This document shows positions 19,576 to 20,934 of a DNA stretch of 64,000 bases, piece after piece. The notes beneath the pieces are model-generated. The model saw only the letters and a list, made by a program, of their open reading frames with translations, was not told the origin of the DNA and did not search any database. Position 1 is the stretch's first letter, and every line of letters begins with the position of its first letter. The translations under genes and the position numbers were made by a program. The DNA comes from Bacteroidetes Order II. bacterium (GTDB lineage Bacteria > Bacteroidota > Rhodothermia > Rhodothermales > UBA2364), in contig JAEUSQ010000030.1 in assembly GCA_016788705.1 (NCBI GenBank), positions 1 through 64,000 of the forward strand. Reading direction: 5' to 3'.

Positions 19576-19911
19576 ATGGCCAAGCAAAACCGTCCGAAAA
19601 ATACGCCTAAATCCGTAGTAACCCCGTTGGGAAATCCCATGGTTACCGAAGAACCCAATCGTCGGGCAGAAAGACGTATGAATACTGCTCTAAATAAAAA
19701 AGGTGCGGTGCAGATGCCTTTTGATCGGCAAAACTATCTGATCTTGTTGGTATGTGTGGCCCTGCTGGTGGTCGGCTATGGAATCATGCGGATGGAGAAC
19801 GAGGCTTTTGGATTTATCAGCCTCTATGTTTCCCCCTTATTACTTTTGGCCGGATACTTTGGCATTGTTTATGCCATTCTAAAGCGCCCTACTCAGGAAG
19901 AAGTACACTAA
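19576..19911 (+). CDS. DUF3098 family small membrane protein
   Basis: The product is 111 aa. A polar, basic N-terminal third (PNRRAERRMN) precedes the signature MPFDRQNYLILLVCVALLVV, followed by a second membrane segment (SLYVSPLLLLAGYFGIVYAI) and a short KRPTQEEVH end. This two-helix layout matches the Bacteroidota DUF3098 family. Its function is not known. In this phylum it often neighbours cell-division genes; that is not the case here. Confidence 0.75.
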   Translation: MAKQNRPKNTPKSVVTPLGNPMVTEEPNRRAERRMNTALNKKGAVQMPFDRQNYLILLVCVALLVVGYGIMRMENEAFGFISLYVSPLLLLAGYFGIVYAILKRPTQEEVH

Positions 19912-20205
19912 GGGCCGCCTTAATCTTGAACCGTCACCTGTTTATAAAGGGACAAGCAAATCAAACAGGGTATTGCGGTGCTTGTCCTATGGGGTTCGAC
20001 TCCCCGTTTGCGTTGGTTGCAAATGCGTCTTACTACGCGCAGCCCTTTATGGCATCAACAAAGGTAAAGAACAGGGCTAAACCCAAGCCAAGGCAGAGCT
20101 TGCAAAATGGGAGATACCGCATAGGAATGAACCCGTGCTCACCCTGTTTTCCCTCTGCTTTGGCGTTCTTTACTTTTGATTTAATCAGATAAAACCGTCT
20201 GAGAG
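19912..20205 (+). ncRNA. Candidate structured RNA in a gene-free interval (multiple hairpins, T-arm sequence, long helix)
   Basis: No credible gene lies here. The interval contains, in order: a 9-bp stem (19950-19958/19979-19987); GGGG-TTCGACT-CCCC (19991-20005), a canonical T-arm sequence; TTTGC/GCAAA (20007-20011/20019-20023); GCGT/ACGC (20025-20028/20035-20038); AGCCCT/AGGGCT (20041-20046/20073-20078); and a long helix in which 20060-20072 and 20087-20098 pair with 20165-20177 and 20153-20164 (about 25 bp with few wobbles). The 20041/20073 stem crosses the long helix, implying a pseudoknot. It could be an independent ncRNA, a tmRNA-like remnant, or a leader of the SPFH gene that starts at 20206. 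The strand is assumed from the T-arm and the downstream gene. Confidence 0.5.
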
Positions 20206-20934
20206 ATGAAACCATTCAAAAAACTATATCAAGTAAAACCCAATACTAGCGGCTATTTATTCCGAGATCATGTATTGGAACAGGTTTGGGCAGCGGGATA
20301 TTATGAAGTGTGGGATTGGAAAAACCGGACCGAGTTGGTCTTGCTACCGGAAACTTCAAAACTGGTGACCGTTACCAACCAAGAAGTGCTGACCAAAGAC
20401 AATATCGCCCTTCGGTTTTCGTTCAACCTTGTTTACCGCATCGCTGACGGAAAGAAGTTTTTGGGCTGTTTTGTGCTTGATCGGCCAATTTATGCCCTGA
20501 TTCAAGAAGCGGAACAACGGATTTGCAACATTGCGCAATTATACCTTCGTAACCGCATCACGGCATTAGACAGCGAAACCCTAAATGAAAAGCGGAATGA
20601 ATTACTCGACTTTAAGACCGAAGAAATGGCAGCGGAAGCGGCAATATTTGGGATTACAATAGAGCAAGCACAACTCCGAGACCTCACCTTTCCCAAATCT
20701 ATTCAGGATTTGTTTTCCAAACACTTAGAATCCAAAATTCGATCAAAATCGGATCTCGAAAATGCCCGAACCGCTGTGGCCACCGCCCGTGCCCTCAAAA
20801 ATGCTTCGGAATTGATGAAGGACGATGAGAACATCAAATTCTTCCAATTGCTTGAAACCATTTCTAAAATTGCTGAAAAAGGCAAGCATACGTTTATGAT
20901 TGGTGACTTGCAGCAACTGGCCAAAAAAACGTAG
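20206..20934 (+). CDS. SPFH/band 7 domain protein
   Basis: The product is 242 aa. The SPFH/PHB domain spans most of the protein: VKPNTSGYLFRDHVLEQV, the strand ELVLLPETSKLVTVTNQEVL, then TKDNIALRFSFNLVYRIAD, and an AEQRICNIAQLYLRNRIT helix. A charged helical region follows (LESKIRSKSDLENARTAVAT), likely the oligomerising coiled coil. Unlike most stomatins there is no N-terminal membrane anchor, so it may be soluble or peripheral. GAGAG just before the ATG could act as ribosome binding site. It directly follows the structured interval. Confidence 0.8.
   Translation: MKPFKKLYQVKPNTSGYLFRDHVLEQVWAAGYYEVWDWKNRTELVLLPETSKLVTVTNQEVLTKDNIALRFSFNLVYRIADGKKFLGCFVLDRPIYALIQEAEQRICNIAQLYLRNRITALDSETLNEKRNELLDFKTEEMAAEAAIFGITIEQAQLRDLTFPKSIQDLFSKHLESKIRSKSDLENARTAVATARALKNASELMKDDENIKFFQLLETISKIAEKGKHTFMIGDLQQLAKKT

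Follow-up and report, generated by a model that had tools for sequence, protein, structure and literature searches.

The 64,000-nt stretch of DNA analyzed here (the window; positions 1 to 64,000 of contig JAEUSQ010000030.1, assembly GCA_016788705.1, from Bacteroidetes Order II. bacterium) raises the question of what occupies the gap between a DUF3098 gene (19576–19911) and a Band_7/SPFH gene (20206–20934). The original prediction, made from the sequence alone, described this gap as gene-free and rich in inverted repeats, and offered three readings: a noncoding RNA, a remnant resembling transfer-messenger RNA (tmRNA), or a leader of the SPFH gene. The gap is indeed gene-free, with only the DUF3098 and SPFH genes as flanks, and all of the listed inverted repeats are present. 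It contains a structured RNA of about 250 nt (19929–20178, + strand) that extends from a conserved AACCG to the end of a long hairpin, and the SPFH gene starts 27 nt downstream. The idea of a structured RNA that is conserved and linked to the SPFH gene therefore holds, and that of a tmRNA-like remnant does not. We favor, at about an even chance, the view that this RNA is a partner acting with a soluble stomatin-like SPFH protein rather than a cis-acting leader. No Rfam 15 family matched the RNA at the curated score, a check that had been proposed at the outset, and no SPFH-associated RNA was found in the open literature searched. The RNA family is undescribed in both.

Covariation shows a conserved RNA fold

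The + strand of the interval folds at -103.3 kcal/mol (z = -4.45), and none of 200 shuffled sequences folded equally well (- strand, z = -2.85). Homologous RNAs were sought with two covariance models. The R1 model comprises one helix of a pseudoknot (helix b), a T-arm, and the next hairpin, and matches window positions 19929–20027; the R2 model comprises the long hairpin and matches 20057–20181. Compensatory changes are already visible among the three congeneric copies. In the R1 and R2 alignments, which are fitted to the models and thus biased towards them (the R1 alignment also includes one chance match, L030 4228–4316), double changes were found in 63 of 66 pairs. For R1, these involve 23 of 25 pairs, with 143 compensatory cells compared with 40.7 in shuffles and 17–36 in slid controls. 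For R2, 40 of 41 pairs covary, with 276 compensatory cells compared with 88.0 and 49–59, respectively. The other pseudoknot helix (helix a) was absent from the R1 model and is therefore free of this bias; the margins over the controls are also large. The helices, including those of the H-type pseudoknot, are thus conserved. Covariation of the paired bases had been set in advance as a point on which the prediction would stand or fall, and it extends across phyla.

The pseudoknot is formed by helix a (CCTGTTT 19937–19943 with AAACAGG 19963–19969; 90.7% of cells paired, double changes in five of seven pairs) and the crossing helix b (GGGACAAGC 19949–19957 with GCTTGTCCT 19980–19988; 96–97% of cells paired, double changes in all nine pairs). 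A pseudoknot had been expected, and a real one exists, although upstream of the place proposed. The stem on which that proposal rested (20041–20046/20073–20078) is not conserved, and GGGC at 20074–20077 instead pairs locally in relatives, within a covarying side hairpin (20074–20084; 97% of cells paired, four of four pairs covary). This side hairpin interrupts the 25-bp composite helix noted earlier, which proved real and consists of P1 (20059–20072/20165–20178) and P2 (20087–20098/20153–20164), both covarying across phyla. Together with P3 (20104–20111/20143–20150) and P4 (20119–20122/20135–20138), they make up the long hairpin (20059–20178; 93.1% of cells paired).

Three unpaired or doubly pairable elements are near-invariant, namely the 5′ AACCG, a UUGCGG after the pseudoknot, and an AUACCG (20114–20119) in the internal loop that separates P3 from P4. 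All 25 rows of the R2 alignment carry this last element unchanged. The GCGG at 19975–19978, near-invariant in the 26-row alignment, can pair with either the CCG of the 5′ AACCG (19929–19933) or the ACCG at 20116–20119. Covariation favors neither pairing, and the two possible partners might reflect a switch or a tertiary contact.

Association with one family of SPFH genes

The interval is present as a single copy in the window's genome. Among 60 relatives searched by blastn, it is shared by only two other species, both of the same genus, which includes Bacteroidetes bacterium UBA2364, and R1/R2 searches over 114 genomes of the order matched only the three congeners. The wider RNA family surfaced only once the SPFH protein served as bait. 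Relatives of this protein with 50–76% identity occur in Lentimicrobium, Epilithonimonas, Vaginella, Flammeovirga, a spirochaete, Chlorobiales, Ignavibacteriaceae, Cyanobacteria, Pyrinomonadaceae, and a Leptospiraceae metagenome-assembled genome (MAG), and the loci bearing the RNA span Bacteroidota, Cyanobacteria, Spirochaetes, Chlorobi/Ignavibacteria, and Acidobacteria. The conservation that the original prediction called for is therefore found in congeners and in several phyla.

In all 26 loci tested (from the protein-bait set, the phylum sample, one order, and Cyanobacteria), the RNA was detected by R1, R2, or both directly upstream of the SPFH gene on the same strand. At L031, L033, and L068 the R1 scores are weak and the assignment rests on R2. 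The order is always RNA then gene, with a gap of 13–36 nt in most loci, and the RNA is absent from the truncated SPFH copies L039 and L040. In the phylum sample, 6 of 394 genomes have the SPFH protein, and an RNA search made independently of the protein matched five of these six and no other genome; in the sixth (G365, locus L046), R2 matches strongly. The partnership of the RNA with this SPFH family is, judging from these co-occurrences, apparently obligate. Furthermore, the RNA core motifs AACCGYCACCUGU, GUAUUGCGG, and GGAUACCG are near-invariant though protein identity falls to 50%.

The presence of the pair is patchy (6/394 genomes in the phylum sample, 9/390 cyanobacterial genomes, and 1/9 in one family). 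In the protein tree, the spirochaete SPFH protein is nested within Bacteroidota with short branches. Such a distribution requires transfer between phyla and points to joint horizontal movement of the RNA and the gene. The RNA family and one soluble stomatin-like SPFH gene are accordingly described here as a predicted two-part, horizontally moving module.

The protein encoded in the window (20206–20934, + strand) has 242 amino acids and both a Band_7 domain (Pfam, E 7.9e-18) and an SPFH fold (AlphaFold2 model, pLDDT 80). The nearest solved folds found by Foldseek are stomatin, HflK/C, and prohibitin, at about 17% identity. The window protein resembles these in domain and fold and differs from them in having a putative RNA partner and no N-terminal membrane segment. 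It begins with MKPFKKLYQV and, as judged by eye and from the model, enters a strand from residue 5 with no N-terminal membrane hairpin. We know of no RNA partner for the stomatin, HflK-HflC, or prohibitin families. SPFH proteins form large cages, the roles of which are poorly understood.

Candidate roles as partner, leader, or tRNA mimic

In 17 of 24 loci, AACCG is preceded at a distance of 4–10 nt by a -10-like box, whereas shuffled sequences gave a mean of 4.8 such loci and at most 10 over 500 shuffles. The spirochaete copy L029 has TTGACA-17-TATGCT. A run of at least four U follows P1 in 15 of 18 loci. The boxes strongly suggest that transcription begins at the first conserved base in most lineages and, together with the U-runs, make the RNA look like the first part transcribed, with the gene behind it. 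Such an arrangement would also suit a cis-regulatory leader of the SPFH mRNA, either autoregulatory and bound by its own protein or sensing tRNA or the state of translation, that controls termination at the U-run after P1 or the start of translation. This explanation is the main rival, with an appreciable probability that falls short of even. It would account for the placement of the RNA always directly upstream, on the same strand, and close to the start codon, for its promoter-like 5′ box and terminator-like 3′ U-run, and for the two mutually exclusive conserved partners of GCGG. However, P1–P4 covary as a single hairpin, and no conserved antiterminator was found; the U-run, the GCGG partners, and this absence are the features that bear on a comparison with riboswitches and protein leaders. 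Likewise, no conserved alternative pairing that could mask the start site was seen, and where Shine-Dalgarno sites are visible (L033, L036), they are free and located 3′ of P1. For an autoregulatory leader, the RNA would also be unusual in its size and in having a core that is better conserved than the protein, and the downstream gene is always of one family.

The resemblance to tRNA starts with the T-arm. An exact T-arm sequence had been pointed out earlier, and it is present as GGGGTTCGACTCCCC at 19991–20005 (stem 19989–19994/20002–20007, loop TTCGACT 19995–20001). The stem covaries, and 21 of 25 homologues share the motif as GGTTCRANTCC. The hairpin that follows (20007–20023; TTTGC/GTTGGTT/GCAAA, inner stem pairs covarying) has GG in its loop, like a tRNA D-loop, in at least 14 of 21 homologues. 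A T-arm followed by a D-arm, with no open acceptor stem, matches the arrangement in a circularly permuted tRNA core. The T-loop consensus is missing from L031, L033, L062, and L068, and a clear GG hairpin is mostly missing from these homologues as well; such joint loss is as expected if the two loops touch. The window copy has only the T-arm and the GG hairpin as clear tRNA-like parts. Two variable hairpins read from its sequence follow (TGCGT/ACGCG 20024–20039 and GCC/GGC 20042–20053), and the second occupies the position at which some homologues have anticodon-arm-like hairpins, but has no anticodon-like loop.

This likeness does not make the RNA a tRNA or tmRNA. Covariance-model and ARAGORN searches of the window agree with the earlier statement that no tRNA or complete tmRNA can be built there; ARAGORN found no tRNA either in the window or where the homologous RNAs lie, and a cloverleaf with an open acceptor stem is absent. 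A T-arm consensus beside a pseudoknot is reminiscent of tmRNA, and the T-arm of L029 alone scores weakly on the tmRNA model (E 0.081). Nevertheless, the interval does not reach the gathering score of RF00023, the genome has an ordinary tmRNA elsewhere (G000:C7:115458-115840, 176.7 bits), and the RNA differs from tmRNA in that neither a CCA-bearing acceptor stem nor a tag frame was seen and an SmpB-type context is missing. With an intact family conserved over several phyla rather than decaying, and neither ARAGORN nor Rfam matches at its loci, an origin as a remnant or variant of tmRNA or tRNA is hardly credible.

Among homologues, anticodon-arm-like 7-nt loops occur in 7 of 18 compared with 1.7 expected (P = 6e-4), although chance seems to account for two or three of these; examples are CTTCGAA in L027, CTGTGAA in L031, and CTCCAAC in L037. 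In the Lentimicrobium copy L026, the insert that follows the T-arm (665–730) holds a D-arm of literal tRNA type (TAGCTCAGTTGGTAGAGC) together with an anticodon-like arm of 7 bp, giving the impression that part of a genuine tRNA gene was captured. These loops and this D-arm would suit a tRNA decoy or bait in a defence or toxin-response module. In such a module, anticodon nucleases would bind or cut the tRNA-like part, or RNA ligases would repair it, and the SPFH protein would serve as effector or scaffold. Proteins of the PNKP RNA ligase and baeRF family 3 groups are linked with RNA repair or translation conflict, and a PNKP_ligase gene (L029 573–1736, in a spirochaete MAG) and a baeRF_family3 gene (L028 1330–2403, in Vaginella) lie near the module, which is itself mobile and patchy. 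In addition, the slipin operon alr0739-alr0740 of Anabaena is repressed by TrcR along with rtcB, rimK, rsgA, and a tRNA array (PMC10272220), although alr0740 is an unconfirmed candidate for the RNA-linked SPFH family and alr0739 is called a YdeI homologue in another paper (PMC9938897). In contrast, no neighbor gene is common to the loci, PADLOC gave no match, no copy was found on phages or viral contigs, no close plasmid relative was found (any match lies below 27% identity), and the window copy has no anticodon-like arm. A tie to RtcB repair was rejected, as RtcB occurs in just 12 of 20 RNA hosts. A decoy role is improbable on this balance.

If the RNA is instead a partner of the SPFH protein, it would have a function of its own as a molecule, either bound by the SPFH oligomer or forming an assembly with it, and the protein would be made by read-through of the same transcript. 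The permuted T-arm and D-arm-like hairpins, without an open acceptor stem, would imitate the tRNA elbow, and this mimic could let the particle engage a tRNA recogniser, for example in translation stress, tRNA damage sensing, or defence. Several observations weigh against such a partnership. The tRNA likeness is partial, with four homologues lacking the T-loop consensus and an anticodon-like arm only in some. The start of the RNA has no -10 box in the window's own genus, where cotranscription of the RNA with DUF3098 may occur. The short, unvarying spacing from the start codon also fits a leader and, to our knowledge, RNA binding is not an established activity of SPFH proteins. A more ambitious and less probable version would be a new bacterial ribonucleoprotein, in which a soluble stomatin-like oligomer or cage is assembled with its own RNA or controlled by it. 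This RNA would present a circularly permuted tRNA mimic that senses or decoys tRNA-directed events (anticodon nucleases, stalled translation), and the whole would spread across phyla as an RNA-plus-gene module.

Few large conserved bacterial RNAs have an obligate protein partner, and several of these proved to be central machines or defence systems. A true RNA partner would provide a direct handle on an SPFH cage. With a structure backed by covariation, a covariance model ready for use, and hosts that include the named isolates Epilithonimonas lactis, Vaginella massiliensis, and Flammeovirga aprica, the family makes these ideas testable at once.

Known systems, neighboring genes, and minor observations

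Bacterial Y RNA (YrlA) with Ro60/Rsr is similar in pairing a noncoding RNA that has a tRNA-like domain with a protein that forms rings or cages. The tRNA-like domain of YrlA is described in PMC7790460, which cites Chen 2014. For its part, the new RNA has a T-arm and a GG hairpin in permuted order. It differs in its protein (SPFH rather than TROVE), larger size, H-type pseudoknot, long hairpin, and lack of an Rfam match. A TROVE (Ro60-like) gene is present in the window's genome (G000:C39:1146-1877; L014, L017), and a genuine Y RNA may lie near it. The RNA-bearing congeners G001 (99% complete) and G002 (100%) have no TROVE protein, and a Y RNA of the resident Ro protein was rejected as an identity for the RNA.

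Retrons, OMEGA RNAs, and type III toxin-antitoxin RNAs resemble the module as structured RNAs directly upstream of a cognate gene with patchy, mobile distributions. The module differs in encoding SPFH rather than a reverse transcriptase, nuclease, or ToxN, and its RNA has no tandem repeats. No reverse transcriptase adjoins the RNA, and the gene beside it is always SPFH, which excludes a retron. The vault particle (MVP plus vault RNA) is comparable in its SPFH-like fold match and RNA partner, by analogy only and with no homology shown; the window protein has no MVP repeats, and vault RNA has a length of about 100 nt and carries polymerase III boxes.

Genes flanking in the window include DUF3098, MreD, and a LolA-like gene. 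A 146-aa open reading frame (19752–20192) that overlaps the interval looks spurious because of frame-breaking indels among the three congeners and the covariation of the helices. The cyanobacterial loci L032 and L034 share TATAGTAGAAACC at the putative -10 position, immediately before the RNA; the TAGTA at its core is reminiscent of TGTAGTAT, the TrcR-type site that has been reported for Anabaena. The SPFH gene of L044 (1486–2230, G240) has two in-frame stops (TAG, TAA), and its upstream RNA is well preserved. Finally, four tandem tRNA-Leu(CAA) genes lie just upstream of the RNA-less truncated SPFH remnant in Flammeovirga sp. OC4 (L040 2339–2748 and 2986–3258).
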